Below, one piece after another: positions 13,868 through 57,416 of a stretch of DNA of 64,000 bases. How positions within the stretch are numbered: position 1 is the first letter of the stretch; each line of letters starts with the position of its first letter. The position numbers and the translations under genes are program-made. The notes under the pieces are model-generated. The model searched no databases, was not told where the DNA came from, and worked only from the letters and a program-made list of their open reading frames with translations. Source of the stretch: Crocinitomicaceae bacterium (GTDB taxonomy: Bacteria > Bacteroidota > Bacteroidia > Flavobacteriales_D > Crocinitomicaceae); assembly GCA_024643725.1 (NCBI GenBank), contig JAHEMJ010000013.1, forward strand, positions 1 through 64,000. The letters run 5' to 3'.

Positions 13868-13870
13868 ATT

Positions 13871-14284
13871 TTACGATAACTTTCTAATGCCTGTAATTAT
13901 TGATTCTGTGTTCCAGCCTACTATAAGGTCTGCTGCATCTGTTACAACCTTACTTGTTCTTTCTGAACCCCAAGGTTCAATTGCTAGAATTGGTTTTTTA
14001 ATTGAAAATTCTCTTGTAGCAATTAAAATTTCCTTATTAATCCATTTACTATGTGTGCTATAAACTCCTGACATTAAAATCACAACATGACTTAATTGAA
14101 TTTGCCTCTTAATAGCCTCATACAATAATTTTTCATTTGGTGCATTATGAATAGGGTCGTCTTTAGGCACAGAAAAATTTTTGTACATAAAGTGTGACCT
14201 ATTATCTAGCATGCTAGTTAGCTTTATGTAAGCATCTGAATAATTCCAGGAATGACTAATAAAAAGATTATGTGTTTTTGACAT
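13871..14284 (-). CDS. TIR-like (MTH538/ThsB type) protein
   Basis: HNLFISHSWNYSDAY...YKNFSVPKDDPIH...VVILMSGVYSTHSKWINKEI (candidate catalytic Glu)...ILAIEPWGSE. Confidence 0.85.
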   Translation of the reverse strand: MSKTHNLFISHSWNYSDAYIKLTSMLDNRSHFMYKNFSVPKDDPIHNAPNEKLLYEAIKRQIQLSHVVILMSGVYSTHSKWINKEILIATREFSIKKPILAIEPWGSERTSKVVTDAADLIVGWNTESIITGIRKLS

Positions 14285-17300: not shown

Positions 17301-17412
17301 TCACTGTATTGAAAGCAATATTTTGCTCTTTCAACTCTTCAAGGCAAGTACCTGTAAGTTTTTTTTCTATGGCTGACTCTAGAGCTTGTTCGTTGGTTTT
17401 AGATAGACTCAT
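14308..17412 (-). CDS. hsdR: Type I restriction endonuclease subunit R
   Basis: MVLFVNGLPFATMELKN nuclease motif; HSAGSGKSNSI Walker A; IDEAHSSQ; AFTATPKN. Confidence 0.93.
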   Translation of the reverse strand: MSLSKTNEQALESAIEKKLTGTCLEELKEQNIAFNTVNERAELYRSGNGYYIGLPEDYNAKYAIDEQRFWDFLQSTQKEELAKLQKQSDWKLKILERLDRMIKKYGILRSFRKGLDVDDAHFTLMYPLPLASSSETVKENFESNQFSSTRQLRYSLTNTGEEIDMVLFVNGLPFATMELKNHWTGQNAKVHGQNQYKYKRDITQPLLNFGRCIVHFAVDTDEVYMTTKLNGASTYFLPFNLGQREPLFGKGNPPNTFGHKTAYLWEEIFTRNSVANIIQHFVRFDGKDTDPLNKKTLYFPRYHQLDVVRKLISDASKKGVGQTYLIQHSAGSGKSNSITWAAYQLIETYPATDTIPGSKGISNPLFDSVIVVTDRRLLDKQLRENIKEFSEVKNIVAPAYSSKELKESLESGKKIIITTIQKFPFIVDGIADLSDKRFAVIIDEAHSSQSGTAAGKMNQAMGNTSDENEEEDEDPQDKILEAMRSRKMRGNASYLAFTATPKNNTLERFGVKQADGKYKPFHLYSMKQAIEEGFILDVLANYTTYKSYYEIEKSIQENPLFDSIKAQKKLRTYVEQNKQTIATKADIMLEHFVTKLVNTKKLKGKAKAIVATQSIESAINYYFSLKTLLEERGNPFRIAIAFSGVKKIKGIEYTEESINDFPAHLDTAKPTDPGYISDKIARYVDMDEYRILVVANKYLTGYDQPKLTAMYVDKKLQGVIAVQALSRLNRSSDKLGKKTEDLFILDFYNATEDIKKSFDPFYTATSLSKATDINVLHELKSNLDDAGVYEWSEVEDFVEKYFKGVNAQELSPIIDIAAERFNTTLELEDKAKADYKIKAKHFVKIYGQMASIMPYEVLAWEKLFWFLKFLIPKLIIVDNEKDALDGLLNSVDLSTYGLERVKLNTSIGLDASETEVDPQNPNPRGAHGAESEKDELDLIIKSFNERWFQGWEATPDEQRAKFVNLAQKMKEHSDFKEKYADNSDVQNREIAFSKIFDEVMGKQRKNELDLYRLISQDEGFKHAMQDTIKRMLRA

Positions 17413-18949
17413 TTTTTATTTTTTTTAATTCTTCTTGTCCTAATTGGGTAAGACGATACTTCTGTTTTTTACTTTTTGGCTTATCAGGAATTGTCATTTC
17501 AATCCATCTATTTTCTGTTGCAGGATCTAAATAGTTTTCATTAAAATTGGTTCTGTGTGATAATTCGAGTTTTGCCATCATTTCACTTCTGCTAATCTCA
17601 CCTTGCAGTATCCATAGTAACCGATGTGCCAAGTTTTCTATATGAATAAATTTTTGTTCATGTGCGGTATCATGTGCGGTATCATGTGCGGTATCATGTG
17701 CGGTATCATGTGCGGTATCATGTATTCCTTTTGCAGTAGCAGAGGGTCTCCATAAAATTACCTTAAATCCTTCATTAATAATAAATTCGGGAGCAATCAA
17801 ATCTGCTTCTTCAGAGAGTTTAATCATTTCTAAAATACCCGTTCCATACCTTTCAATATCGCCTGTTAAAAACATGCAATTTGCTAATAATGGATTGTGA
17901 GGGTAAGAGCCATGTGCCTTTGGAAGGTCGGATAGCTCTAATTCGTCGGGTAGGCTGCCGGGATTAAATATTTCTATTCGGTTTTTAAAAATGGATACTT
18001 GAATACTTGCCTTGCTATAATAGTCTCTGTGAGCAACTGCATTTATAATGGCTTCGGCAATGGCTCTACGAGGAATTTCATAGGTAGTACTTACCTGATT
18101 ATTTGCTTCTCGAGTACCTGTGCTAAGACTTATTTTAGAGAGTACAAAATCAACTGCGCGCTCTGCCATTTCAAAGGCAGTTCCACTAAATTCTTTATAA
18201 TCAGGAATCGGCTTTTCTACTACGAAACCATGAAAATGGGCACATTTTACAGTTGATGTTGTGAAAAAACGTTGTGGTTTTTTTCCAAAAGCTAAAATGG
18301 CACTGTTGGTTAATTCATGATTTCGGATAAGATTGAGGTGAATCAATACCTGCTCAATAGGGGCTGTCTCTGGCACCGGAAAATTTCGTTTTGCTCTTGC
18401 CGTGCGCACAAATTGCTGAATCAATAAAGGATCAATATCATCTATTGTAGCTTCGCTGTTTATACTTTCATCAAATTCGTGACTATTTATTTTGCCGGTT
18501 TGTTTCAAGTAGCGAACACATGAATTGTACACTTCTTTTTTTAAATCTTCGATGGTTTCAAAACGTTTGCGAGAAACATCATCGCCCACTTTTTTGATAA
18601 ATTTGAGTTCTTTAAGGTGGCGATTTTGATCCGTGTATCCTTTAATAAATACCCATTTTTGCAGAAAATTTCTTTTTGCTTCGTTATACTCATTTTCTGT
18701 GGGAGAAATGCCTTGAGCATCTTCAAATCCATAATCGTTACCCAAAATACCGATATAGATATTAGACGCAGCCACTTCGGCCAAATACACTTGAGACGCA
18801 CTATGACCATTGGCTGCTATTTCTTCAAATAAAAACACCTCAAAAAAACTTCCCAACAAGGCATCATTCCGGATGTATTGACCCAAAGCCTTACGCTCTA
18901 GTTCAAATTCCTTTTGCACACTACTGATGAATATTTTTAAAGGCTTCAT
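17399..18949 (-). CDS. DUF4062 plus GHKL-type ATPase (AlbA/HATPase_c_4-like) protein in the R-M operon
   Basis: IFISSVQKEFELERKALGQYIRND (DUF4062); AIAEAIINAVAHRDYY..IEIFNPGSLPD and GDIERYGTGILEMI. Confidence 0.8.
   Translation of the reverse strand: MKPLKIFISSVQKEFELERKALGQYIRNDALLGSFFEVFLFEEIAANGHSASQVYLAEVAASNIYIGILGNDYGFEDAQGISPTENEYNEAKRNFLQKWVFIKGYTDQNRHLKELKFIKKVGDDVSRKRFETIEDLKKEVYNSCVRYLKQTGKINSHEFDESINSEATIDDIDPLLIQQFVRTARAKRNFPVPETAPIEQVLIHLNLIRNHELTNSAILAFGKKPQRFFTTSTVKCAHFHGFVVEKPIPDYKEFSGTAFEMAERAVDFVLSKISLSTGTREANNQVSTTYEIPRRAIAEAIINAVAHRDYYSKASIQVSIFKNRIEIFNPGSLPDELELSDLPKAHGSYPHNPLLANCMFLTGDIERYGTGILEMIKLSEEADLIAPEFIINEGFKVILWRPSATAKGIHDTAHDTAHDTAHDTAHDTAHEQKFIHIENLAHRLLWILQGEISRSEMMAKLELSHRTNFNENYLDPATENRWIEMTIPDKPKSKKQKYRLTQLGQEELKKIKNESI
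17659..17718 (-). repeat. 12-bp coding minisatellite, 5 full copies (catgtgcggtat on +), encoding AHDT repeats
   Basis: Direct reading of the sequence. Confidence 0.97.
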
Positions 18950-18950
18950 G

Positions 18951-20249
18951 TTAACTCACTTTTATTTTACCCGTTACCGCACTATTTATTAAGGTGGCTT
19001 TGTATTCTTTTAGCTTTTCTATTTCTTGCTCTTTGAGGGAAATGGCGGTATCTACTTTCAAATTTATATTCTCTACATAATTTCTTATTTCATCCATTTC
19101 ATTAATTGGCGGTATTGGCACTTCAATCGAATTCAAATTTCCGATGGTAAGTTGATTAATTGTTGAAGTTAAAAACATACCCGACAGAGCTTTGAATATG
19201 GATGAATTTAAAATACAAAAAATATAAGGATTGATATCCGACCTAAAAACTGTTGTAAATGCCCCAAATGAATGACCAGCATCAATCTTAGTTGCTAAAG
19301 CACATTTGCCAATTAAGTCTCGGCTCCCGTTTCTAGAGCAGATTAAAATATCATTTTCTCTGATTAATAATTTTTCAGGAATTCTTGATTTTACATAAGC
19401 ATTTTCTTTTTCACCATACTTAAACTTTCCCTCGAATAAATTTGAAGATCTTAAAACTAAGGTTCCTTCTTCTATGCCGCATAAATCATTTGGATTATAG
19501 GTTAGCCCAATAATTGAATTTCCTAAATGCTTCAACCTTTTTACCTCCCAACCCTCCGGTATTTCCCCAATCCATTCCACCCCACTATCTTTCATTTTCA
19601 AATTGGGGTTTAACCCACGGGTAACCGCTTTGTGTATGAGTATTTGCCTGCGTTCTTTGAGCAGTTCTATTTGTTTTTGTTTGATGTCGATGGCTTGGTC
19701 TAGAAAGGCAGTTTTGCGGTCGAGAAAGTGAGCAATGGCGGTTTGTTCTTCCATTGGAGGAAAAATCAAATCACAATTAGCAATGTCGTTCCAATTTAGA
19801 GTTTGCCTTACACCTGAACCCAATAATTTCATAAATTCCACATCAAAACGATGCAAAAAATATTTATAAAATGTTTTATCAAGCTTAATTGAATTGCCTA
19901 ATACAATATAACCTGAGCTTACAACAACATCAATATCTGACAAGGCAATTCTCAAACTAATTAAGTCATAGTTTAGATTAAGGGGGTTTACTAAAAAATC
20001 ACCTCTTAATACTACCTGATAGGATTTCTTTGTTGACTCAGGAATTTTTTCATCATCCTTGTAAACTACTTTTCCAAAGCTAATTGAACCACAATTCAAT
20101 TCAGGATTACTTCGTTTCTTTATCTCATGGAAAACTCGCTTGAATTTTTTTATTTCCCAGTGGGAAGGAACATCTACAATCCAATCAACTCCTGAATGTT
20201 TATATGCTGGATATTTATTAACCGTTTTATTTTCTATTACCGTTTCCAT
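18951..20249 (-). CDS. hsdS: Type I restriction specificity subunit S
   Basis: Two TRD repeats each starting (K)xSGVxWIxxxPxxWExKxxK; EEQTAIAHFLDRKTA. Confidence 0.93.
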   Translation of the reverse strand: METVIENKTVNKYPAYKHSGVDWIVDVPSHWEIKKFKRVFHEIKKRSNPELNCGSISFGKVVYKDDEKIPESTKKSYQVVLRGDFLVNPLNLNYDLISLRIALSDIDVVVSSGYIVLGNSIKLDKTFYKYFLHRFDVEFMKLLGSGVRQTLNWNDIANCDLIFPPMEEQTAIAHFLDRKTAFLDQAIDIKQKQIELLKERRQILIHKAVTRGLNPNLKMKDSGVEWIGEIPEGWEVKRLKHLGNSIIGLTYNPNDLCGIEEGTLVLRSSNLFEGKFKYGEKENAYVKSRIPEKLLIRENDILICSRNGSRDLIGKCALATKIDAGHSFGAFTTVFRSDINPYIFCILNSSIFKALSGMFLTSTINQLTIGNLNSIEVPIPPINEMDEIRNYVENINLKVDTAISLKEQEIEKLKEYKATLINSAVTGKIKVS

Positions 20250-22633
20250 TAAGCTAGATTTAAAATTTCACGAATTAAACCATCACTCAATTCTTCCAGT
20301 TTTAAAATATCGGCACTAACTTCATCAATGGCACGTAAAGGTTTGTGGCGGTAGAAGTATTTATTAAAACTTATTTCGTAACCAATTTTGGTGGCATCCA
20401 GGTTTATCCAAGCTTCGGCAACGTGTGGTTTTACTTCACGCAAAAAGTAGCCGTAAATGTTTTCTTTCAGAGGTACATTCTCCGTATCACGTAAATCGCT
20501 TTCGGTTTCGTATTCTATATACCAGCCACGGCTGGTAGGCTCGCCTTTTTTGGAAGTAGCAAAATAACCGTAATCGGCAAGTTCCGTTTCTCTGCAATCC
20601 AAGTGCTCCAGCAATTGTTCTAATTTATCCCCCGTTAATTTAGTAATGCCTTTTATAACTTTTTCGGCTGTGGCATCGTACCAACTTACGGCATTCAAAA
20701 TGGCATTTTTTTCTGAAGCAGAAAGTTTTGCTTTCATCGTTTTCAATGCTTCATCTACCTTTTCTTTGAATACATTAAAGTCGTTGTATTCATCATTGCC
20801 AATGGTTTTCATCAACTCAGTGGCGGTATTTAATAACTCTTCTTGCTTTGTCCAAAGGGCTTCGCTTACCAATGTTTTACTTTGTTTGGCATTGAGGTTT
20901 AACTCATTTTTTTCGCACCATTCCGTTATTTCTTTTTCATGTTTGGCCAGGTCGGTATACACCTTTTCTCCAAATGTTTCATACGCCCACACCATTGGCT
21001 CACGCAAGGTTTTATCGAAACGCAGTTCAGCAATACGTTCAGCGGTAAATTGTGATTTCATTCGCTTAGGTCGTTCAATGGTTACTTTGTAATAACCAAA
21101 GTCGGTATTGTCAAACAGTTTCGATGCGATACCTTGTTCTTCTTTTGTTTCAGGATGTATTACCCGATCAACGGCTTGCATTTTTTCATATACCGATACT
21201 ATTTCACGAATATGTTCGGGTGCAAACTCACAGTTTTTATTTCCTAAGTTCTTACGCAGTTTTCGGAACAATAATCCCGCATCAATCAATTGCACTTTGC
21301 CTTTACGGTTCTTTGCTTTGTTGTTGCTTAAAATCCAGATATAAGTAGTAATGCCCGTATTGTAAAACAAGTTATTGGGCATTTGCACAATGGCTTCTAA
21401 CCAATCGTTTTCAATAATGTACCTGCGAATATTACTTTCGCCACCACCGGCATCACCTGTAAACAAACTACTTCCATTATGCACTGAAGCAATACGAGAA
21501 CCCAAAGGACTTTGTGTTAAGGGTTTCATTTTGTTTACCATTTCCATCAGGAAAAGCAACTGCCCATCAGATGAACGGGGTGTTGCATCAGCGTCTTCTT
21601 CAATACCCCAATAGTTTTTCAGTTTAATTTGAAAACGAGGGTCTATAATATCCTTGCCATCTTTAATAAACTTCTGCTCACTCGCCCACGACTTTCCGTA
21701 AGGCGGATTAGAAAGCATAAAGTCAAAGCTTGTTCCGGAAAACTCATCGGTAGAAAGGGTTGAACCCACACGAATGTTTTCAGGGTTGTTGCCCTTAATC
21801 ATCATATCCGATTTGCAAATGGCATAGGTTTCATCGTTTATTTCCTTACCATACAAATACACATCGCCTTTGGCTTTGATTTCTCCCTCATCATCCTTTA
21901 CAAAATTCTGCGATTCAGTAAGCATACCACCGCTGCCACAAGCCGGGTCGTAAATGGTCATTACGGGTGGGAGTTTATCTCTAACAAGTTCAAAAATAAT
22001 GTGCGTCATCAAGTCAATAACTTCACGAGGAGTAAAGTGCTCACCGGCTTCTTCGTTATTGTCTTCGTTAAATTTCCGAATCAATTCCTCAAACACATAG
22101 CCCATTCCCAAATTGGTTAACGGTGGCAGTTTCCGACCGTCAGGATCATTTTTTTCGAAAGGGGTAAGGTTGATATAAGGCGAAGTGAACTTTTCAAGCA
22201 CATTCAATAAAACATCTTTCGATGCCATGTGTCTCACTTGACTTTTGAGTTTAAATTTTTCAATAATCTCTTTTACGTTTCCACTAAAGCCGTTCAGGTA
22301 ATCTTCAAAGTTGGCTTCCAGTATTTGTTGGTTATTGGTAGCTGTGTCGTGCAAGCGTTGCAAGGTCCATTCGCTAGTATTGTAAAACACAAAACCACTG
22401 GCTTGTCTCAAACCATTTTCGTCCCATTCGGTAAACTTGGCTTCCTCTTTTTGGAAAACCAATTCTTCAAGAACTGCTTCTTTGGTAGGCTCTAGCAAAG
22501 CATCCAGTCTGCGAAGCACCACCATGGGTAAAATTACATCGCGGTATTTTCCTCTTACATATACGTCACGCAAACAATCGTCTGCTATTGACCAAATGAA
22601 GGATATTGATTTATTATGTACGGCTTGGTTCAT
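20249..22633 (-). CDS. hsdM: Type I restriction methylase subunit M
   Basis: GEHFTPREVIDLM, YDPACGSGGML, SNPPYGKSW. Confidence 0.95.
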   Translation of the reverse strand: MNQAVHNKSISFIWSIADDCLRDVYVRGKYRDVILPMVVLRRLDALLEPTKEAVLEELVFQKEEAKFTEWDENGLRQASGFVFYNTSEWTLQRLHDTATNNQQILEANFEDYLNGFSGNVKEIIEKFKLKSQVRHMASKDVLLNVLEKFTSPYINLTPFEKNDPDGRKLPPLTNLGMGYVFEELIRKFNEDNNEEAGEHFTPREVIDLMTHIIFELVRDKLPPVMTIYDPACGSGGMLTESQNFVKDDEGEIKAKGDVYLYGKEINDETYAICKSDMMIKGNNPENIRVGSTLSTDEFSGTSFDFMLSNPPYGKSWASEQKFIKDGKDIIDPRFQIKLKNYWGIEEDADATPRSSDGQLLFLMEMVNKMKPLTQSPLGSRIASVHNGSSLFTGDAGGGESNIRRYIIENDWLEAIVQMPNNLFYNTGITTYIWILSNNKAKNRKGKVQLIDAGLLFRKLRKNLGNKNCEFAPEHIREIVSVYEKMQAVDRVIHPETKEEQGIASKLFDNTDFGYYKVTIERPKRMKSQFTAERIAELRFDKTLREPMVWAYETFGEKVYTDLAKHEKEITEWCEKNELNLNAKQSKTLVSEALWTKQEELLNTATELMKTIGNDEYNDFNVFKEKVDEALKTMKAKLSASEKNAILNAVSWYDATAEKVIKGITKLTGDKLEQLLEHLDCRETELADYGYFATSKKGEPTSRGWYIEYETESDLRDTENVPLKENIYGYFLREVKPHVAEAWINLDATKIGYEISFNKYFYRHKPLRAIDEVSADILKLEELSDGLIREILNLA

Positions 22634-26940: not shown

Positions 26941-27864
26941 CTATTTCCAAATTGGTTGTTTTTGCCAGTTATTTAAAAATCCTAGTTTATAAATTGGCAA
27001 GTTTGGATTGGATGCAAAAAGGTCTAAAATTTTAATTTTAATTTGATGTGTCGGCGTTACTTTATTGCATAAATAAATCATTGAAGTTATAATTAGAAAT
27101 GGTTTTTTGCATTGCACGGGAAGCAATGAACTATTTAACCAGTCCGCTTTGGGATTATTGAGGGTTTCAATAGGTATTTTTACCAAATTTCTACTCCAAA
27201 GTCTTGAATGATGAGCAATTATGTTTCTAACATAGGTTATTGATTCAAGCCAGCTAGAAAGCTCACTATGCAAGTTTAGCCCCATTTCCTTAGCAATGGT
27301 TGCTTTTTCAGGAAGCTGGTGTTTTAAATTCTTGTAAAGTTTAGATAGCGTCCCCATTGAGGCAATTTCTAAAATTTTCCAGGAATCTGAATCTTGATTT
27401 GGATATCTTCTTTTTTGGTCTTTAATGAAAATTTCTTGACTTCGGTTGAATTCCTTCTTAAGTTCAGATACTATATTTTGATGAATGGTAACAGTTGGAT
27501 CAGATGGCAATGGCGTATTTTCAAATAACTTATTGTCTAAATACCATAAACTCCCATATGCAATTGACATATGGTAAATCATCTTTGTTCGTAACGCAAT
27601 TTCAATTCTTTCAATTGCATCAAACAGTATTAACCTTAATTTTCTATCGAAATTGTATCGTTCGATAACATCCTCAAAATAAGTGTTTGGCTTCAAGGCA
27701 TGGGAAGAAACATCTTCTTGCATATCCCACCAATATCCCTTTAAACGGTAATAGCTAATGTTTTCTAAAAAATGGTATGCAGACTGCTCATCATTGAAAA
27801 GCATACCTCGTTGCTTTAACAAGGCAATTTGATCTGCTATGGAGTAAGGAGTTTTATTTGCCAT
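26941..27864 (-). CDS. Abi_2 (AbiD/AbiF) family abortive infection protein
   Basis: SIADQIALLKQRGMLFNDEQSAYHFLENISYYRLKGYW...ITYVRNIIAHHSRLWSRNL (RxxxxH HEPN motif). Confidence 0.88.
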   Translation of the reverse strand: MANKTPYSIADQIALLKQRGMLFNDEQSAYHFLENISYYRLKGYWWDMQEDVSSHALKPNTYFEDVIERYNFDRKLRLILFDAIERIEIALRTKMIYHMSIAYGSLWYLDNKLFENTPLPSDPTVTIHQNIVSELKKEFNRSQEIFIKDQKRRYPNQDSDSWKILEIASMGTLSKLYKNLKHQLPEKATIAKEMGLNLHSELSSWLESITYVRNIIAHHSRLWSRNLVKIPIETLNNPKADWLNSSLLPVQCKKPFLIITSMIYLCNKVTPTHQIKIKILDLFASNPNLPIYKLGFLNNWQKQPIWK

Positions 27865-47154: not shown

Positions 47155-48147
47155 TTACAGCGCCAACTTCGATTTATTCAACCAAATCAATTGTACTTCG
47201 GTTGTTTCTTGTAGTCGTTCCGCAAGTTTAAAATAGCGTTCGGACAAAGAAGAAAGAAAGTCCTGAGCTTTGTTGCCTTCATCGCTCAATCCTTTCAGCT
47301 TGTCAATTCCCCAGAATTTCACCAAGTGATCGATGATATTCGCGTAGTCGTGACTCGTGTACACGCCAATTTTTTGTGTTATGGAAGCGTAATTCACGTA
47401 TTGTTTTTTCTCCGTACCAAAGTCCATAAGAGAAGCAGGCATGACAATTTTTTTCTTCATCATTTGAACGAAGGCAGCTAATCCACCATTCGGATCCGCC
47501 TCCAAAACTTTACTCATAAAAAACTTGTACGCTCTTTCGTGCAAAGCTTCTTCACCTGCGATGGTGTTACAGATTTTTGCCAACAATTTATCGCCAGATT
47601 TAAAGGCAATTTTCCCTGTGTTTACATGGGATATTTTTGTGGCACGTTCTTGAAAAGAAGTGTATATCAATCCATTATATGGATCTGCAGCGGTTTGCAA
47701 ATCGATGCCATTGTGAATCAACCGTTGGATGGTGATTTCCACTTCTCGCATGTCCACGCGTCCACTGAGGTACAAATATTTGTTCAACAAATCACCATGA
47801 CGATTTTCTTCTGCTGTCCATAATCGCGACCAGCGCACCCATGAATTTGAGCTCGCCACATTGCGCTCTTCGTTGACACCTTTCAACAAATTGAAGAAGG
47901 TTTGATAACTTGGTAACGCTTCTTCGGTAATCATGTTTCCCACCAAGGAAACCATGACAGTATCTGGAACTTGTGCAATTCCTTCTTGTAAAACACGTAC
48001 TTGATCAGCAAAATCTGCATCCGCCGCATTGGGGATGAAGTCCGTTGGTTGCCAGCTCGTTTCAGGCGTTTTCATTTTTTCATCGATGAACTGCTCAACG
48101 TGTTGTTCAATCGACGCGATCACTTCCATTTTTTCTTCGAATGCCAT
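47155..48147 (-). CDS. Acyl-ACP desaturase family protein
   Basis: TAEENRHGDLLNKYLYLSGRVDM and GEEALHERAY di-iron ligands. Confidence 0.85.
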   Translation of the reverse strand: MAFEEKMEVIASIEQHVEQFIDEKMKTPETSWQPTDFIPNAADADFADQVRVLQEGIAQVPDTVMVSLVGNMITEEALPSYQTFFNLLKGVNEERNVASSNSWVRWSRLWTAEENRHGDLLNKYLYLSGRVDMREVEITIQRLIHNGIDLQTAADPYNGLIYTSFQERATKISHVNTGKIAFKSGDKLLAKICNTIAGEEALHERAYKFFMSKVLEADPNGGLAAFVQMMKKKIVMPASLMDFGTEKKQYVNYASITQKIGVYTSHDYANIIDHLVKFWGIDKLKGLSDEGNKAQDFLSSLSERYFKLAERLQETTEVQLIWLNKSKLAL

Positions 48148-48360: not shown

Positions 48361-49305
48361 TTGATTAAAATGAGTATTATTTTACAAGACACAAAAGAGA
48401 TTCGTAAATTGATTCCACATGAACGTTCGAGCAAATTACATCGCATCAATGATTTCAAAGGTATTGCTTCTATTTTACTAGAATGGACCTGTATCCTCGC
48501 ATGTGCTTGGTTATGTCAAACCTATTTCTCTTGGTACTTTTATTTGTTTTCGGTGATCTTCATTGGTGCACGCTATTTAGCTTTGGGATTAATCATGCAT
48601 GAGGGCGTTCATCAACTCGTTTCGAAAAACAAATTTGTCAACGATTGGTTATCTGAAATCCTATGCGCTTGGCCTTTGATCATTTCCATGCGTTCTTATA
48701 GGGTGAAACATTTGGCGCATCATGCAAAACTAAATTCAGATGAAGATCCGGATTTCGTTGCGAAGTTTGATCCAAACTGGCGCTTCCCGATGAAGAAGAA
48801 GCAATTCTTTAAAGTGTTGGCGATTCAACTATCTGGAATCGGTGTATTTGAAACATTCAAAGTGATGTCAAGCGCTCAGATGAAAACAAAGAAGGACAAA
48901 GCTCCACGCTGGTATACGTTTTTACGGGTATCTTTTTACCTATCTGTGTTAGCTGGATTTATTCTCACTGGACACGGAATGACCTTGGTTCTTTATTGGT
49001 TGATTCCTTTCGTTACCTGGACCCAAATAGCCAATCGCTTGCGTCGCATTGCGGAACATTCAGGAATTCCAGATAAACCGGCTGACCTTCAGACCAGAAC
49101 GACAACTCACGGATTGCTCACACGTATTTTTCTTGCTCCGAAGTACATTTCCTATCACAATGAACACCACATATATCCAGGGATTCCATGTTACAATTTA
49201 CGTGCAACCCATCGGATGTTCAATCAACATGATGTCATCAAACAAAACTTGCACGTATCAAAGTCCTATTACGATGTGTACAAGGAATGTATTTCAGCCA
49301 AATAA
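48361..49305 (+). CDS. Membrane fatty acid desaturase
   Basis: His boxes HEGVH, HLAHH, NEHHIYPGIP. Confidence 0.85.
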   Translation: MIKMSIILQDTKEIRKLIPHERSSKLHRINDFKGIASILLEWTCILACAWLCQTYFSWYFYLFSVIFIGARYLALGLIMHEGVHQLVSKNKFVNDWLSEILCAWPLIISMRSYRVKHLAHHAKLNSDEDPDFVAKFDPNWRFPMKKKQFFKVLAIQLSGIGVFETFKVMSSAQMKTKKDKAPRWYTFLRVSFYLSVLAGFILTGHGMTLVLYWLIPFVTWTQIANRLRRIAEHSGIPDKPADLQTRTTTHGLLTRIFLAPKYISYHNEHHIYPGIPCYNLRATHRMFNQHDVIKQNLHVSKSYYDVYKECISAK

Positions 49306-49308
49306 ATC

Positions 49309-50241
49309 TTAGAATTTCTTTCCCGTTTTGGCGGAAGTTCGAAAGACATAATCTTCACCTTTCATGGACTTTGCCTGAACAAACCAATGGATGTAGCTCG
49401 GCTCTTTTGGTAAATTTATATCAATTTTTTGCAGGTAATACGCTGGAATTCCAGGGTACACATGGTGTAATTCATGGTGATTGAAATTGAAGAGAAAGAG
49501 TGCTTCAAACCAAGCATTGACATAAAAGCTACGTGTATACGTTACTTGATCTACATAAGGAACCGGTTTCACTTCTGCTCCGTTCGAAATGGGAATATCT
49601 ATGTGAGAATGTTGAGTCATGATGACCAATTCCTTCCATATCAAACTAAGAAGAAAAGCAGGAAGGACGAAGTGGATCAAGAATGCGTTAAAAAACAAAC
49701 CGAGTAGGAAATAAAACGCCACGTACGCAACCATATGCAAAATCGTCATCCGAAATTTCTGAGCGTTTAAATGACGCTTTATTTTCATTACATTCCAGTA
49801 ATTACTGACCATGTACGACAAAAAGAAAAGAGGGATAAATAAAAACCAAGACACATTGACCACCCATCGCATTATTGGAGAATCTTGTGGTTCTACCGTT
49901 TTCTCCGTGGTCGGATCTTTGTCTCGCCAGCCTGTCCACTTATGATGCAGGTTATGCATGTGCGTCCACGAATAGAATGGAATCACCGTTAACAATCCGA
50001 GAACATGTCCAAAAAACGTATTTAAAAACCGTGTTTTAAAAAAATTCAAATGTCCACACTCATGCAGTAAGATAAAGGTTTGCAAGAAAAAAAAGGATAA
50101 AAGCAATTGACCTGTCGAATAAAGAAACATGTTCGGTTGCAGGGACAAAAATACACCGAATACGCACAACGCTGTTGGGACAAGTAAACTTAAAAAAGCC
50201 TTGTCATCACGTGCCTTCCATTGACTGATATCCTTCGTCAT
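49309..50241 (-). CDS. Membrane fatty acid desaturase
   Basis: His boxes HECGH, HNLHH, HHELHHVYPGIP. Confidence 0.85.
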   Translation of the reverse strand: MTKDISQWKARDDKAFLSLLVPTALCVFGVFLSLQPNMFLYSTGQLLLSFFFLQTFILLHECGHLNFFKTRFLNTFFGHVLGLLTVIPFYSWTHMHNLHHKWTGWRDKDPTTEKTVEPQDSPIMRWVVNVSWFLFIPLFFLSYMVSNYWNVMKIKRHLNAQKFRMTILHMVAYVAFYFLLGLFFNAFLIHFVLPAFLLSLIWKELVIMTQHSHIDIPISNGAEVKPVPYVDQVTYTRSFYVNAWFEALFLFNFNHHELHHVYPGIPAYYLQKIDINLPKEPSYIHWFVQAKSMKGEDYVFRTSAKTGKKF

Positions 50242-50244
50242 TCC

Positions 50245-51213
50245 TTACTTTGCTTTTTCCAACACAATGGTTTGCATGGATAGATTTAATACTTTTTGAA
50301 AAATCAACACAGGTGTTAAGAGCAATTGTCCCAAGAAATAAGGGAATATGATCTTATTCAAATTTAATCCTTTGCCAATTAACTTGAAATAAGCACCCGC
50401 GAAAATATAGAAATACGGAGGAAAGGCACCCCATGCTCGGTATTTCACAACCTTGAAACCGTTCCGTTCCATCATTTCAACAAACTTCTTTTTATCAAAT
50501 AGGATGGTGTGTTGTGGCGCTTGGACACCTGGCCATTTTTTTCCAAATAAACGGTAGGTGAAACTATCCAATCTCGGTACTTCGATGATTAATTTACCAT
50601 CATCCTTCAGTACTTCTTTGGCTTTCTCCAAGGTTTTAATTGGATCGTAATCATGCTCTAGAAAATGCCACATCGTGATAAGGTCGTAGCGTTTACTTGA
50701 CATTTCTTGTTCGTAGAACAATCCTTCGTAAAATTCAATTTTATCAAATCCCGGATATTCGAGTCCTTCTTTGAAATCTACACCGCTGATCTTGCAGTTG
50801 TATTTCTTGTTCATGTGCAAAAGAAAAGTACCGACAGCGCATCCAACATCTAGAATTTCTGTTTCTGAATCAAAACGCACATGTTTGGAGACCAATTTAT
50901 CTTTTTCACGATCGTGTTTATTCATTGTCCACTCATACAGAGGTGTAAGTACTCCCCAATTTTTTTTCTTGCGATGAGCGATGTATTCTCCATCATAAAA
51001 TTCTTTGATTTGATCCACGGAAATCCTTGGATTTTGATACACCAATTGACATTGATTGCATTTCACATATTGAAACTCCCCATCTTTTCCCGTAAGGTCT
51101 TCTTGACCAATGAGAAATAGGGAATAATCATCCGAGCCACAAGAATAACAATTAACTTTTTCAAAGCGATAATGCGCAGGATTGTTTACTTTTTTTAGAA
51201 ATAGTTCGTTCAT
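50245..51213 (-). CDS. Class I SAM-dependent methyltransferase with N-terminal zinc-ribbon-like Cys pairs
   Basis: CYSCGSDD...CNQCQLVYQNPR; EILDVGCAVGTFL; MWHFLEHDYDP. Confidence 0.83.
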   Translation of the reverse strand: MNELFLKKVNNPAHYRFEKVNCYSCGSDDYSLFLIGQEDLTGKDGEFQYVKCNQCQLVYQNPRISVDQIKEFYDGEYIAHRKKKNWGVLTPLYEWTMNKHDREKDKLVSKHVRFDSETEILDVGCAVGTFLLHMNKKYNCKISGVDFKEGLEYPGFDKIEFYEGLFYEQEMSSKRYDLITMWHFLEHDYDPIKTLEKAKEVLKDDGKLIIEVPRLDSFTYRLFGKKWPGVQAPQHTILFDKKKFVEMMERNGFKVVKYRAWGAFPPYFYIFAGAYFKLIGKGLNLNKIIFPYFLGQLLLTPVLIFQKVLNLSMQTIVLEKAK

Positions 51214-51932
51214 TTGATTAGGGAATTAATGAATATACACAAAGGATAATAGGCGATGGGGAGGTAATGTAGGTACTTCCAACGAGGAAAGAACCAAACA
51301 AGTAGCATCGGAATCAATATGAAAACTGGAGCGAAGGGAAACGAAATGGAAAACAAAGTAAAGAATCCAGCCGTTGCCAAAGCGCCCAAAGCGACAAATC
51401 GTTTCAGGTCGCCGATCTTTTTGTCCTCCAGTAAATCATACGACAACAGGATGAAAAAGGAACTCAAACAAATAAAAATTAGCGCATTCGAGGCATACTG
51501 AAATACCAAACAATAGAGCAGGACTGGATATTTCAACAAGGGAATCAGCGAAAGAACGGAAAATTGTTTCTGAAAAAGGACATACAACAACAACGAAGCA
51601 AAAATGAATAAGGAAACAATCAGACCAATTTCTTTGGAATACATGAAAAGCAAGGATTGATAAGCCAAGCAACTAACTGCGGTAAAACGAAGAAAAGTTG
51701 GATAGTTTCCGGGGGATAAATAGCTACGATCTGGGTGATGGCTTCGATCGTAAGAAACGGAACAGGCATCGTCGAGTAAACGAAAGATAAAAAACGATAG
51801 CACTAAAAAGATTACCCGCGAAAGCTCATCCACTGCTTTCAATCCTGGAGAGTAAATCAACAAGGAAAACAATATGGCCAATCCCAAGAAAGACCAAGAC
51901 TTTAAACGTGTCTGTAAGTAATGTTTAATCAT
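51210..51932 (-). CDS. Polytopic membrane protein, possibly UbiA-like prenyltransferase
   Basis: FRLLDDACSVSYDRSHHPDRSYL Asp-rich loop in a multi-TM protein. Confidence 0.45.
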   Translation of the reverse strand: MIKHYLQTRLKSWSFLGLAILFSLLIYSPGLKAVDELSRVIFLVLSFFIFRLLDDACSVSYDRSHHPDRSYLSPGNYPTFLRFTAVSCLAYQSLLFMYSKEIGLIVSLFIFASLLLYVLFQKQFSVLSLIPLLKYPVLLYCLVFQYASNALIFICLSSFFILLSYDLLEDKKIGDLKRFVALGALATAGFFTLFSISFPFAPVFILIPMLLVWFFPRWKYLHYLPIAYYPLCIFINSLIK

Positions 51933-54363
51933 GTTGAATCAATTGAATTCTACCTAGATTGCCGTCCAAAATGACTTCATCATTGTCTTTTAACGATCGT
52001 GTGATGTGGTCGATACCAATCACTGCTGGAATCCCGAATTCACGTGCAACGATAGCTCCGTGGGACAAGGCTCCTCCGCGTTCGACAATCAGTCCACCGA
52101 TTAATGGAAAAACCATCGCCCAACCCGGATCCGTTTGCTTGGTGACCAAAATATCACCTTGTTCAATTTTATTTCCTTCCAAAACCGATTCCAACACTTT
52201 CACTCGTCCACGAATACGTCCACCACTCGCTGCAAGTCCACGAAATTCTGTCGCGCCTTCTACAAATGAAACCTCACCTGCGATGGATTCAGGTCGTTCG
52301 CCAAAATTAGTGGAGAAATTACTCGGAAATTCCTTCTTTGATTCCTCCTGAAAATGCTGTATTCGTGTCGATATTTTTTCTTTCAAGAGCCCGCTATCCA
52401 TGGCCGAAGAACCAATAAGTTCTCCAATTTCCTTGTAACTTAAATACAAGATATCTTCTGAATCACTAACATTTCCTTTATTGACCTCCTTTGCGCCAAT
52501 TCGCTTAACGACCACTTTGAATTTGTAATACATCTCTGCTTGCTTATATCTCACTCGCTCTCGACTAGAAATTGCATTTTTACAAAGGGTTGCAACTAGG
52601 TAAAGTTTAATAACCTCAAATAAAGTCACAGGCAACAAAACATGCCATTTCTTAACGATTTTCCAGACAAAAGTGCGCATCGCTTTTTTTCGTTCTTGGT
52701 CCTTTTTTTCAATGACCGCACGTGGATTAACTGCATCGTTTCTCATATAACTTTGCACTAATTCCACGAATTTAAGAGGTTCCTCGATGTAATTGCGCTT
52801 AAAGAACATCAATTCGCCTGAACAGCGAAAACCCCATGTTTTCAAGTAGTGCTGAAATCCATTAAAAACCGTTTTCCACTCAGGTGCATATTGAACTTTT
52901 TCCCAAACGACATCGGTTGGATTTTCAAGGAAAAAGGACTTTCCTCCTTCGACTTGATCGATTTGAACGACTAAGTCCCAAATGTCATTTAAAGGCTCAC
53001 TACTGATGAGACCAGGAATGGCTTGTATCAAGGTATTGTGGACACCCACGCTTTCTTCACCAAAGTACGAATGTGCCATTTTTCCCAAAAGCTTGTAATG
53101 AATCATCGAAAAGAAGTCCGCAAGACTTGCGTGATACCATTGATTGAAACGCAAATCCAGGAATTCGTAGAACAATTTGGCATCCATTTGATCCCCTTGT
53201 TCTTCGTCTACTTTTTGTGAAAAACGACTGACTTTCCCTTCAATATTTTGCACATGGCTTTCCAAGCGAATGTTCAAGTAAATCAAACGCCACACCAATT
53301 TCATTAAGGAGGTTCGATTCACACTTGAATGTGTTGCCACATCTTGATCAGAATATCCAACGAATTGATTAAATGCCTCTTTAAAATAAGCCCTCAAAGG
53401 AGAACTAGACATGACGTTGTGAATGTTTGTCATGTTGTAGTAAATGCGGTTTCCCCAAATACCTACCGTATTGCTAAAATCATATTCCAAAGAACGCAAG
53501 GTTTCTCCGTCAATTTGTAGAAGCTTCGAAATGTTTTTGAAATAATGGTAATAGGAATCCCGTGCAATCGAATACAGTAGGGGAGAGATTGGATCTGGAT
53601 AATTTTCGTTTAGGTTGGTATTCGACCAATAGACTTTTTTCGTCACTTGAACCGTAATCGGACGTGCTTGTACAAAATAAATCTGATCTCCTTTCGAAAC
53701 CCATTCAATATCCAAATGACAACCATATTGATCTTTGAGTTGGAAACTTTTCGAAATCAATACTTTGGCATTGAAAGGCAAGTCTAGCTGATCGATATTT
53801 GCTCTTTTAACTGAAAAGTTTTTCGGAGTAATTTTTCCTGCAACGAGTTGTTCCCCGGCCCCTTGGACATATTCCGTATAAGAAGAAAACTCATCGGTTG
53901 GTGATTGCGTGAAGGTTACTCCGGCGTAATCCGCTTCCAAAAAGACTTGAATCACGAGTGCCATTTCGGTCAGTCGCTTTCCTGAAATCTGTTCATAAGC
54001 TTTTACGCGCTCGTTTTCGAGTCCTTTCCAACATTGCAGAATGGTCGCTTCCACGGCGGATAGTTCATTTTCAACTACAATGGAATCCAATTGTCCGGCA
54101 AAAGAATGATGCGCAGAATCCTCGCCAATTGCCGAACTTCTCACGATAAGCTTTGCACTATTCAATTCAGCAATGGCATGTTTCAACTCCTGTTGAAATC
54201 CAGCGGGCCAATGTTTAGCAGCTTGATAGTCCGTTAATAGAGCCTTAGTTATGGCAAAACCTTCCGGCACATCAACACCATATTCCAATAATTTGGATAA
54301 ACTAGCGGCTTTACCTCCAACTAAAATTTCGTCCAATGAATGAGTTAACTTACGAATGTACAT
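51925..54363 (-). CDS. PEP-synthase/PPDK-like (dikinase-type) phosphotransferase
   Basis: LVGGKAASLSKLLEYGVDVPEGFAIT, LIVRSSAIGEDSAHHSFAGQ, swivelling His domain GGALSHGAIVAREFGIPAVIG. Confidence 0.85.
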   Translation of the reverse strand: MYIRKLTHSLDEILVGGKAASLSKLLEYGVDVPEGFAITKALLTDYQAAKHWPAGFQQELKHAIAELNSAKLIVRSSAIGEDSAHHSFAGQLDSIVVENELSAVEATILQCWKGLENERVKAYEQISGKRLTEMALVIQVFLEADYAGVTFTQSPTDEFSSYTEYVQGAGEQLVAGKITPKNFSVKRANIDQLDLPFNAKVLISKSFQLKDQYGCHLDIEWVSKGDQIYFVQARPITVQVTKKVYWSNTNLNENYPDPISPLLYSIARDSYYHYFKNISKLLQIDGETLRSLEYDFSNTVGIWGNRIYYNMTNIHNVMSSSPLRAYFKEAFNQFVGYSDQDVATHSSVNRTSLMKLVWRLIYLNIRLESHVQNIEGKVSRFSQKVDEEQGDQMDAKLFYEFLDLRFNQWYHASLADFFSMIHYKLLGKMAHSYFGEESVGVHNTLIQAIPGLISSEPLNDIWDLVVQIDQVEGGKSFFLENPTDVVWEKVQYAPEWKTVFNGFQHYLKTWGFRCSGELMFFKRNYIEEPLKFVELVQSYMRNDAVNPRAVIEKKDQERKKAMRTFVWKIVKKWHVLLPVTLFEVIKLYLVATLCKNAISSRERVRYKQAEMYYKFKVVVKRIGAKEVNKGNVSDSEDILYLSYKEIGELIGSSAMDSGLLKEKISTRIQHFQEESKKEFPSNFSTNFGERPESIAGEVSFVEGATEFRGLAASGGRIRGRVKVLESVLEGNKIEQGDILVTKQTDPGWAMVFPLIGGLIVERGGALSHGAIVAREFGIPAVIGIDHITRSLKDNDEVILDGNLGRIQLIQHD

Positions 54364-54887
54364 CAGATGGAACGTTTAATTTTTAACGAATACAGGATCA
54401 CTGAAGTGACAAATGAAATGACCATAGCACTGATAAACAGGATGAAACAATCCAATAAAGGACAATTAGTTACTACGTAATAATACAAAAAAATGGCTAG
54501 AAGTGAATCCGCTCGATCGATGATAATTTGCAACACTTTGTATTTCTCCGAATGTCCACCATTTGGAATGTGTAACTTCCGTTTTACATACGAATTTGGT
54601 AATTCTGCTAATAAATATACGATGCCCATACCTAATCCAAAAAGAATCACATTCAAATGATTACCGAGAAATGGTCCAGACAAAACGCTTCCCATCCAAG
54701 CGAAAAATGCACTTAAAATGGGTAGTATGATAAATCCACGCCATGTTTTATTCTGTCCAAACAATCGCACTGAAATGGGGATTTTGAAAGAACGAAGCAG
54801 ATCCCATTTCACGAAGACCATGTGAATGGAGTTTGCTAGAATCATGGGAATGAAAATCAATAGGATATGTTGGGGTAGGTTTGCCAC
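54363..54887 (-). CDS. CDP-archaeol synthase (CarS/CdsA)-like membrane protein
   Basis: FGQNKTWRGF...LLAELPNSYVKRKLHIPNGG...IDRADSLLA. Confidence 0.65.
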   Translation of the reverse strand: MANLPQHILLIFIPMILANSIHMVFVKWDLLRSFKIPISVRLFGQNKTWRGFIILPILSAFFAWMGSVLSGPFLGNHLNVILFGLGMGIVYLLAELPNSYVKRKLHIPNGGHSEKYKVLQIIIDRADSLLAIFLYYYVVTNCPLLDCFILFISAMVISFVTSVILYSLKIKRSI

Positions 54888-54897
54888 GTTAAGTGTT

Positions 54898-57216
54898 TTA
54901 GATGGATTGAATCATTTTAAGAGCGACCGCAAACACACGGTTAATGAATGGATAGTGAACCAAGGTACTTCCAGCTAAATAAAAGCTCACACGTGTCAAT
55001 AAAAACTCATCTCCAGCGATTTTAAAATCGTCCAAATAATCTTGGTAGGAGTAAGTCGTATCGTTCCATTCTTTCATCAAGTGAAAATGTTGTTTGAGAA
55101 CACTTTCCAATTCAGTGGTTGTAAAATCTTCCAGCAATGTAAAGGCTAAAAATTCAAATACATCTCGTTGTGGAACGTTAAAGGAGGCTAGTTCCCAATC
55201 ATACATGCAAAGTCTTCCATCCATTCGAACGCCGACATTCCTTGGATTAAAATCATTGTGGACGAGCGTCAACTTGCTTTTTTTCATTGGCATTTCTTTC
55301 ATCCATTGATCGAGAACTGAATCCAAATACTGAAAGGCTTCTTCCATATTTAAAAATTCATAATCCTTGGAATTCAAACGATTGAATTGCCTGTATAATT
55401 CCAACGCTTTCGAAGGATCAAAAACAACCACCGCCGGAACTTGTCCTTTGGTTTCCTCATTAACGAATTCGGAATGTATCGCATGAATGGCTTGAATGGC
55501 ATTCATTTTCAGTTGTTCCGTCCACTTTTCAGGATGGTTCTCAGAATTAAAGAGTTGCATAGTTGTCGCTTCCAATCGTTCCATGAACAACAAATAAATC
55601 TCGGCTTGTTCATCGATTTTTGAACCGTAAAAGGCAGGAATTGATCGATTACCCAAATTCGTGAGTGCTTGATATACTTGAATTTCCTTTTGTTCACAAT
55701 TGGCGTATTCCAAATATTGGCGATGTTCAAATAAGGTGTCTGAAAGTTGAACATTTAAGTTACTGGCCATAAACCGCAATCCATCAATGACTTCCGTTCC
55801 CAATGCTTTGCTTTTCATCAACACGGGAATAAGCGATTCATCCGCCAAAGTCAGATCTACTTCAATGAATCCAATGATTTTCTTGGAAACCCGACTGGTA
55901 AGATCCATCAGGATGCCATTCTCCAAATTGGAGTCGTTCCGAAACTTGAACGAAGTAATTTGAGGGTGAAATAAGTTCATTCCCTTTGAGATAAACGCCA
56001 AATCAATGTCCGATTTCAACAACCAACTAACGGGCTTATTACGTCCTAACTTCTGATGCGCTCGTACAAATTGTCCACTAACAATTGCTGCCAGCGTAGA
56101 AACCTCTAAGGATAATGCAAATCCAGCAATCAATTTTGAAAAGCGTTCAACCTTACCAATTCCTTTGCAACCCATTAATTCGAGCATCTTCGAAAAAGCC
56201 GGTAAATGTGTTCCGCCCCCAACAGTTCCCACGACTAAATTTGGCAAACTCAAAGAAATGTACAATCCTTCGGATGTCTGTTCCATTTGCAAAATACCAG
56301 TAGAGGATTCATGAATGCATGCTAAATCTTGTCCGGTAGCAGCAAAAATTCCTGCAATGGTATTCGCCACATTAATGTTGTATCCAATCATCCCATCCAT
56401 GCGACTGATAGCCATGGAGTGATTGTAGGAACGAAACATATCGTCCGCGGTTGTTCGCAACGTTTTTTCAACGATTTCATTCGATAAGAAACATTCACTG
56501 ATAACGTGTGTTCCTCGTCCATTTTGCATGGAATAAAACGATACTTTTTTATCCGAAGCACCGTTTCCATCAATGACAAAATGCAGGATTTCGATTTCCG
56601 TTTCCTGCTGAAAATGTTCATCAATCCACAGGCAAGCATGCCAAGTACAACTTGTTGTCATATTTTGTCCAGATGCATCGCTGGTGGAATAAATAAACTT
56701 CAGGTGGGCAATTTTCCCAATGATCACCGAAGAAATCTCCATCAAATCTGCGTAATTGGAATATTTTTGAGTGACCTTTTTAATTTCTGTGAAGTTCTTT
56801 TTGATCCATTGATCAAAAGCAATAGCTTCGGACATTTGTCCAAATGTGAACATTGGTGTTCGAAGCATTTTTTGATGAACAACATGCGCTTTAAATCCAC
56901 CACATTCACTTATCGCTTTTGCACCTCGATTCATGCTAGCGGCCAAAGCTCCTTCCGTGGTTGCCACTGCTGCATGCACCATTTCCGATTGATCTCCATC
57001 CACAAAACGCAGTGGACCAATAAGTCCAAGAGGGATTTCAACCGTTCCAATGAAACTTTCAATGTTATTTTGAATATTTTCGAGGCGAATGTTCACAGAG
57101 TCCAACTCTCCATCTAACTCAACCATAGACTTCAAGTAAGCCATTCTAAGTTCATATGCCGTTTGATTCATTAATCCACGTCCTGGCGCCAACTGATAAT
57201 CATTCTTCATCTTCAT
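54898..57216 (-). CDS. HMG-CoA reductase fused to APH-family kinase-like domain
   Basis: HMGR: IPLGLIGPLRF, ATTEGALAASMNRGAKAI, DASGQNMTT, GASDKK, ATGQDLACIHESS, GTVGGGTHLP, VRAHQKLGRN. APH: LTLVHNDFNPRNVGV, MYDWELA. Confidence 0.88.
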   Translation of the reverse strand: MKMKNDYQLAPGRGLMNQTAYELRMAYLKSMVELDGELDSVNIRLENIQNNIESFIGTVEIPLGLIGPLRFVDGDQSEMVHAAVATTEGALAASMNRGAKAISECGGFKAHVVHQKMLRTPMFTFGQMSEAIAFDQWIKKNFTEIKKVTQKYSNYADLMEISSVIIGKIAHLKFIYSTSDASGQNMTTSCTWHACLWIDEHFQQETEIEILHFVIDGNGASDKKVSFYSMQNGRGTHVISECFLSNEIVEKTLRTTADDMFRSYNHSMAISRMDGMIGYNINVANTIAGIFAATGQDLACIHESSTGILQMEQTSEGLYISLSLPNLVVGTVGGGTHLPAFSKMLELMGCKGIGKVERFSKLIAGFALSLEVSTLAAIVSGQFVRAHQKLGRNKPVSWLLKSDIDLAFISKGMNLFHPQITSFKFRNDSNLENGILMDLTSRVSKKIIGFIEVDLTLADESLIPVLMKSKALGTEVIDGLRFMASNLNVQLSDTLFEHRQYLEYANCEQKEIQVYQALTNLGNRSIPAFYGSKIDEQAEIYLLFMERLEATTMQLFNSENHPEKWTEQLKMNAIQAIHAIHSEFVNEETKGQVPAVVVFDPSKALELYRQFNRLNSKDYEFLNMEEAFQYLDSVLDQWMKEMPMKKSKLTLVHNDFNPRNVGVRMDGRLCMYDWELASFNVPQRDVFEFLAFTLLEDFTTTELESVLKQHFHLMKEWNDTTYSYQDYLDDFKIAGDEFLLTRVSFYLAGSTLVHYPFINRVFAVALKMIQSI

Positions 57217-57416
57217 CCACTTTATGTCAACAAGAAAGGGAAACTTCCTTTCCGTTTTTAGTCATTTCATACAAACATAAGTGAATTTCGCTAATTTCAT
57301 TCCGCTAATTCCGCAATCTACCCGTGGTAATTTGCGCAAATCGCAAATTTTAAAAAATTAGGCTAAAGTTTAAAGGAGCAGGTATGAACGATTAATTTTA
57401 ATTTCAGATTTTGAAA

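Follow-up and report, generated by a model that had tools for sequence, protein, structure and literature searches.

We wanted to know what is made by the six-gene operon at positions 49309-57216, on the minus strand, of a 64,000-nucleotide stretch of DNA from a Crocinitomicaceae bacterium (contig JAHEMJ010000013.1, positions 1 to 64,000; this whole stretch is called the window). The operon encodes an HMG-CoA reductase (HMGR) fused to a kinase, a CarS-like protein, a dikinase, a UbiA-like membrane protein, a methyltransferase and a desaturase. A first-pass annotation, made from the letters alone, had proposed an isoprenoid, ether-like lipid or small-molecule pathway, and its six genes, their strand, coordinates and five junctions all agreed with ours. 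We tentatively read the operon, in a call that falls just short of even, as a pathway devoted to making a phospholipid analogue; it would then be one variant of a cluster family that is widespread and, it seems, undescribed. The annotation knew of no described pathway with this gene set; the literature that we searched, mainly open access, likewise held no description of it, which does not prove its absence from the literature.

Conservation of the six-gene order

Read from the HMGR-kinase gene onward, consecutive genes are separated by a 10-bp gap (HMGR-kinase/CarS-like), a 1-nt overlap (CarS-like/dikinase), an 8-bp overlap (dikinase/UbiA-like), a 4-bp overlap (UbiA-like/methyltransferase) and 3 bp (methyltransferase/desaturase), a spacing from which we infer that the six genes probably form one transcript. 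The G+C fraction is 0.393 in the operon and 0.392 in the window. An HMGR alignment scanned against 85,462 species genomes returned 80 loci; about 40 of these, spread over many phyla, have a kinase fusion, as called by kinase motif and length. According to the first-pass annotation, its proposal would fall if no other genome conserved the gene order. It does not fall on this count: two phyla, the Bacteroidota and the Bdellovibrionota, together supply five further genomes with the same order, namely Aestuariivivens insulae (L048), two Flavobacteriales metagenome-assembled genomes (MAGs; L050 and L060) and one MAG each of the Bacteriovoracaceae (L066) and of Pseudobdellovibrio (L072). Most junctions in these sister operons overlap or are 10 bp or shorter, and the view of a real, coherent operon is supported. 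The methyltransferase is the most conserved protein (63-73% identity to the window protein); the corresponding ranges are 38-61% for the HMGR-kinase, 40-58% for the dikinase, 39-57% for the desaturase, 35-40% for the CarS-like protein and 26-33% for the UbiA-like protein. The three histidine boxes of the desaturase are kept across all six genomes. Since five other genomes share the order, and most of their junctions are tight or overlapping, we conclude that the six-gene arrangement is not due to chance.

The annotation had overlooked both the wider cluster family and a further component, a PlsC-family acyltransferase. All five sister operons contain a PlsC gene of one subfamily, either between the methyltransferase and desaturase genes or just before the HMGR gene. 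The window operon lacks it, and a copy of the same subfamily (29-48% identity to the five) is found on contig C12 of the source genome. In the 34 congeners lacking the operon, the best matches to this protein are generic (E value of 4e-8 or worse, identity of at most 29%), and the C12 PlsC is an independent co-occurrence with the operon. At C12:55126-58082 (L129:7127-10083), the PlsC gene is followed by genes for a HemL-like class III aminotransferase and then a KdsR-like short-chain dehydrogenase/reductase; neither the PlsC protein nor the aminotransferase has a close counterpart in the congeners searched. It is possible that the C12 locus belongs to the lipid pathway of the operon as its second locus.

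The HMGR-kinase fusion and isoprenoid supply

Pfam matches backed the family labels given earlier to the HMGR, kinase, CarS-like protein, methyltransferase and desaturase. When aligned with archaeal and plant HMGRs, the reductase domain has the catalytic residues Glu559, Lys691, Asp767 and His866 (human numbering throughout), and the fusions also retain Arg590, Asp690, Lys692 and Asn755. Further, His752 is replaced by Asn in nearly all fusions and in none of the type C HMGRs (from the sister clusters without a fused kinase, described below), and the position of Ser684, which precedes the catalytic Lys, is Glu or Asp in all cluster HMGRs compared with Ser in the archaeal and plant enzymes. We dropped the latter as proof of another substrate, because Glu or Asp is also found there in the majority of the other bacterial class I HMGRs in our set, including those of Hymenobacter. 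In the kinase domain, the motifs HNDxNxRN and YDWEL are invariant across 16 fusions; the domain has the HxDxxxxN and DxE/DFG-like motifs and the fold of the APH/choline kinase superfamily, and its structural model (predicted local distance difference test score, pLDDT, of 92) matches the choline kinase LicA and other APH-type small-alcohol kinases in the PDB. The HMGR tree separates the fusions, the type C enzymes and the other bacterial class I HMGRs (support of 99 for each). It also places both Bdellovibrionota HMGRs within or beside the Bacteroidota fusions, a placement that suggests transfer between phyla.

Mevalonate supply, the first step suggested in the annotation, did not survive inspection of the genomes. 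The operon HMGR is the only HMGR of the source genome (G000, 95% complete), and 34 congeners have no HMGR at all. The source genome encodes Dxr of the methylerythritol phosphate (MEP) pathway, gave no match for mevalonate diphosphate decarboxylase (MVD) and has only two GHMP kinases, which, from sequence and neighbors, we read as GalK (beside a GalT-like gene) and IspE. Among 23 cluster genomes tested, all nine that are MVD-positive hold at least one further HMGR besides that of the cluster, and 13 of the 14 that are MVD-negative and Dxr-positive have the cluster HMGR only. The HMG-CoA synthase family PF08540 was discarded as a test for the mevalonate pathway, as it misses most MVD-positive genomes too. 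Because Dxr is present, MVD was not detected and every MVD-positive cluster genome carries an extra HMGR, we conclude that the operon HMGR does not feed isoprenoid supply in the source genome.

Two observations concern HMGRs elsewhere. First, Hymenobacter persicinus (L108/G469) has a class I HMGR of unassigned role and Dxr, with no MVD detected and no cluster; Hymenobacter HMGRs are therefore unsafe as mevalonate controls. Second, two genomes of the same order (L041 and L043) have type C-clade HMGRs in which Glu559 is replaced by Gln and, in L043, Lys692 also by Met, apparently without cluster partners.

The CarS-like, dikinase and UbiA-like proteins

The Pfam match of the CarS-like protein barely passes its cut-off, and that to the NCBIfam CDP-archaeol synthase model (1.1e-11) lies below its own. 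The family (n = 14) retains NKTWRG-type, ELPNSxxKRRxxIxPG-type and DxxDS-type motifs, the signature of the CDP-archaeol synthase/CdsA superfamily, and its profile has a single match in the PDB, CDP-archaeol synthase (5guf, 3.4e-6). A search with PF01884 for geranylgeranylglyceryl phosphate (GGGP) synthase gave no match in the source genome or in G452, G456 and G459; since the enzyme was not found in the source genome, archaetidic acid is an unlikely substrate of the CarS-like protein, and "ether-like" in the archaeal sense is not supported.

The label of phosphoenolpyruvate (PEP) synthase, originally given to the dikinase, is not supported. Pfam shows only the PPDK_N and PEP-utilizers mobile domains, the C-terminal PEP/pyruvate-binding domain was not detected, and the nearest solved structures (5hv1-5hv3 and 5fbs-5fbu) carry the deposited name "phosphoenolpyruvate synthase" but are taken here to be Listeria rifampin phosphotransferase (Rph). 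The ATP-grasp and phosphohistidine motifs VRSSA..ED, VQARPIT and GGALSHGAIVARE align with 5hv2 and 5fbs and are kept in cluster homologues. NCBIfam matches include PigC and RedH, and the dikinases of the six genomes with the same gene order form one clade (support of 100).

For the UbiA-like protein (240 aa), there is no Pfam match, and the label given to it has tentative support from profile and fold comparisons. RxxDDxxxxxxD is conserved in six homologues; alignment by hhalign with the UbiA-type proteins of related clusters gave a probability of 93% over 89 columns, covering the first motif region only; and the top Foldseek matches are digeranylgeranylglyceryl phosphate (DGGGP) synthase (7bpu and 6m31) and other UbiA folds (best E value of 0.12, from a low-confidence model with a pLDDT of 67). 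The long UbiA form of other clusters has D-x3-D-x3-D, and its profile matches DGGGP synthase best in the PDB, followed by chlorophyll synthase.

A wider family of clusters

The wider clusters retain HMGR, dikinase and UbiA and add CDP-alcohol (serine-type) phosphatidyltransferases and, once, a phosphatidylserine decarboxylase. Type B, in the Moraxellaceae, consists of UbiA, HMGR-kinase, dikinase, GNAT, AMP-ligase, CDP-alcohol phosphatidyltransferase and CarS. Type C, found in many Bacteroidota and in some Gemmatimonadota, Verrucomicrobiota and others, has a core of HMGR without kinase, UbiA, dikinase, DUF3419, phytol-kinase-like and GNAT genes, sometimes with SRPBCC or AMP-ligase genes and in some cases with CTP_transf_1 and a CDP-alcohol phosphatidyltransferase. 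Type D, in Paenibacillus and Desulfobacterales, combines HMGR-kinase, dikinase, UbiA and CarS with a PssA-like gene or, in one Desulfobacterales locus (L081), with the decarboxylase Psd (PRK00723, 2.3e-93). Moraxellaceae, Paenibacillus and Desulfobacteraceae all have loci that combine PssA-like genes with those for HMGR-kinase, CarS, UbiA and dikinase. The best models for the phosphatidyltransferases of types B and D are PssA and archaetidylserine synthase, all below cut-offs. These phosphatidyltransferases and Psd point to a phospholipid analogue. Cultured carriers include Aestuariivivens, Kordia, Phaeodactylibacter, Paenibacillus, Sphingobacterium, Dyadobacter and Portibacter.

The phytol/dolichol-kinase-like gene is present in none of 17 fusion clusters compared with 15 of 17 non-fusion clusters, a contrast whose p-value is inflated by lineages that are not independent; the two exceptions lie on a short contig or miss the rest of the module. 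DUF3419 co-varies with this gene. The swap is suggestive of two ways to phosphorylate a new alcohol, at the small-molecule stage by the fused kinase or at the lipid stage by a membrane kinase. Ole (olefin) genes beside the Paenibacillus cluster L080 were not counted as members, since they are not conserved in L083 and L084. In locus L088, an HMGR-kinase fusion gene adjoins a UbiA gene and genes resembling those for polyketide synthases and nonribosomal peptide synthetases (PKS/NRPS).

A proposed pathway and its alternatives

Our best reading, from the CarS-like and UbiA-like proteins, the PlsC partner and PssA/Psd in the sister clusters, is that the operon would carry out lipid-type chemistry, and these partners fit the lipid idea of the first-pass annotation. 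We infer the substrates, step order, role of the dikinase and product as follows. The HMGR domain would produce a primary alcohol by reduction of a 3-hydroxyacyl-CoA, either HMG-CoA or a related compound, and the fused kinase would phosphorylate this alcohol to give a backbone that replaces glycerol phosphate. The dikinase could then activate an intermediate via histidine-mediated phosphoryl transfer, the UbiA-like protein would add a prenyl chain and the PlsC-family acyltransferase an acyl chain, and the CarS-like enzyme would convert the lipid phosphate to a CDP-lipid. A CDP-alcohol phosphatidyltransferase, encoded within the sister clusters and here presumably the housekeeping one, would add the head group, and the methyltransferase and desaturase would tailor the product. 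Chain attachment is assigned here by protein family, CDP-activation by the CarS signature and the head-group step by the partners in the sister clusters. A more specific version is possible but rather doubtful: a widespread class of bacterial membrane lipids whose backbone is not glycerol. In this version, HMGR-type four-electron reduction and the fused kinase would make a C6-type (mevalonate-like) alcohol phosphate, branched or hydroxylated, in place of glycerol phosphate; prenylation, acylation and CDP-activation would follow, and the head group would be of the serine/ethanolamine type. If the pathway is real, the HMGR fold, that of the statin target and one of biology's best-studied enzymes, has a new use outside isoprenoid supply, probably in making a new membrane lipid; such a use would be relevant to the "lipid divide" and to the question of why MEP-pathway bacteria have HMGR genes.

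Several points weigh against a phospholipid analogue. No CDP-alcohol phosphatidyltransferase gene lies in the window operon itself, and the model leaves the dikinase step unexplained. Compared with the reference Asp-motif positions of UbiA prenyltransferases (PMC9385802), motif 1 of the UbiA-like proteins in these operons keeps the first and last acidic positions and has Ser, Gln or Cys for the middle Asp, and motif 3 is variable; because motif 1 is incomplete, the activity of this short form is uncertain. Further, the fusion loci L053, L057 and L061 have other partners: CarS and UbiA are absent, and the HMGR-kinase is found with P-loop kinases, an NTP_transf_5 protein and a divergent dikinase. 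The sister clusters with DUF3419, phytol-kinase and AMP-ligase genes may yield a different product.

Among the alternatives, one that we consider improbable is that the HMGR acts on an isoprenoid or fatty acyl-CoA and yields by reduction a long-chain alcohol, which the kinase would convert to a monophosphate and the dikinase to a diphosphate, the donor for the UbiA-like protein. This would account for the phytol/dolichol-kinase-like gene that replaces the missing APH domain in non-fusion clusters, for the AMP-ligases that accompany many clusters, for chlorophyll synthase, which ranks second among the PDB matches to the UbiA profile, and for Glu/Asp in place of Ser before the catalytic Lys in all cluster HMGRs. 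However, the remaining HMGR pocket residues are kept, the kinase domain resembles kinases of small alcohols such as choline, the window type of operon lacks an AMP-ligase, and many other bacterial class I HMGRs of unassigned role likewise have Glu at the Ser684 position. It is less probable again that the product is a secreted or pigment-like small molecule, with the dikinase as a PigC/RedH-type ligase that joins two halves, followed by prenylation by UbiA, methylation and desaturation: the NCBIfam matches and the PKS/NRPS-like neighbors of L088 agree with it, but the best solved-structure matches of the dikinase are of the rifampin-phosphotransferase type, and CarS, PlsC, PssA and Psd are membrane-lipid enzymes. 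A canonical archaeal-type ether lipid, with the UbiA-like protein as DGGGP synthase and the CarS-like protein as CDP-archaeol synthase, is very unlikely. Although the nearest solved structures of both proteins, the archaetidylserine-synthase-like partners and the GGGP synthase of several cluster genomes speak for it, the search for GGGP synthase found none in the 95% complete source genome and none in three MAGs among the five genomes with sister operons, the UbiA motif is incomplete, and the scheme has no place for the HMGR-kinase and dikinase. Mevalonate supply for isoprenoids, with which the intact catalytic residues of HMGR agree, is barely credible, being largely refuted by genome content (Dxr, no MVD detected, no spare GHMP kinases and another HMGR in mevalonate-pathway carriers of the cluster).

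Features of the operon and the window

Two desaturase genes near the operon were considered and set aside (Table 1): DES2, a second membrane desaturase, adjoins it and lies outside the conserved gene set, and the acyl-ACP desaturase gene is not conserved with it. Elsewhere in the window, a caspase-like protein beside a ThsB-like (TIR-like) protein forms a possible Thoeris-type defense pair, which a type I restriction-modification locus adjoins.

Table 1. Positions of the operon genes and of other features in the window
Feature	Position	Strand	Details
HMGR-kinase fusion	54898..57216	-	772 aa; Pfam HMG-CoA_red 4.9e-100, APH 5.1e-12
Class I HMGR domain of fusion	56032-57216	-	~residues 1-395
APH/choline-kinase-type domain of fusion	54901-56010	-	~residues 403-772
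CarS-like membrane cytidylyltransferase	54363..54887	-	174 aa; GTG start; Pfam CarS-like 1.7e-4
Dikinase-type phosphotransferase	51925..54363	-	812 aa; ATP-grasp (PPDK_N) and C-terminal phosphohistidine domain (PEP-utilizers), without PEP domain
UbiA-like membrane protein	51210..51932	-	240 aa; short form, Asp motifs partly degenerate; profile and fold comparison, without Pfam match
Class I S-adenosylmethionine (SAM) methyltransferase	50245..51213	-	322 aa; Methyltransf_23 1.1e-23; N-terminal CxxC...CxxC, hydrophobic C-terminal tail
Membrane fatty-acid-desaturase-type di-iron enzyme	49309..50241	-	310 aa; FA_desaturase 7.5e-33
Gap upstream of operon	57217..57416	-	one TAnnTTTG (Bacteroidota -7-like) match at ~57279, pattern match only
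DES2	48361-49305	+	
Acyl-ACP desaturase	47155-48147		FA_desaturase_2
Caspase-like and ThsB-like proteins	12920-14284		
Type I restriction-modification locus	14308-22633		
AbiD-family abortive infection protein	26941-27864		
Intein/Hint-like splicing domain	775-1611		weak; near apparent mobile/phage-like region (1-10.5 kb)

Comparison with known systems

The late steps of the proposed pathway resemble archaeal and bacterial phospholipid synthesis. The archaeal pathway comprises GGGP synthase, DGGGP synthase, CarS and archaetidylserine synthase and decarboxylase (PMC9385802). The operon shares with it a putative UbiA-superfamily enzyme and a CarS-like protein, to which the sister clusters add a serine-type CDP-alcohol phosphatidyltransferase and a decarboxylase; it differs in its partly degenerate UbiA motifs and in the additional HMGR-kinase, dikinase, PlsC, methyltransferase and desaturase, and we do not class it as archaeal because GGGP synthase was not found in the source genome. 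Bacteria of the Fibrobacteres-Chlorobi-Bacteroidetes (FCB) group have putative archaeal-type lipid genes for GGGP and DGGGP synthases, with CarS reported missing (PMC7852524). The present operon comes from the same superphylum and likewise has a putative archaeal-like UbiA protein, but it includes a gene for a CarS-like protein, and no GGGP synthase was found in its genome. With the class I HMGRs of the mevalonate pathway, the operon HMGR has in common the fold and the catalytic Glu, Lys, Asp and His; unlike them, it is fused to an APH-type kinase, belongs to a clade of its own (support of 99), is of a group with Asn for His752 in nearly all members and Glu or Asp at Ser684, and is untied to the mevalonate pathway. 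The dikinase is like Rph and the PigC/RedH ligases in joining an ATP-grasp to a phosphohistidine domain without a PEP barrel, and unlike them in its middle region and operon context. Finally, the phytol/dolichol kinase and BtaA (DUF3419) genes of the sister clusters have the same HMGR, UbiA and dikinase neighbors as the window operon, which lacks both and has a fused kinase and a methyltransferase.

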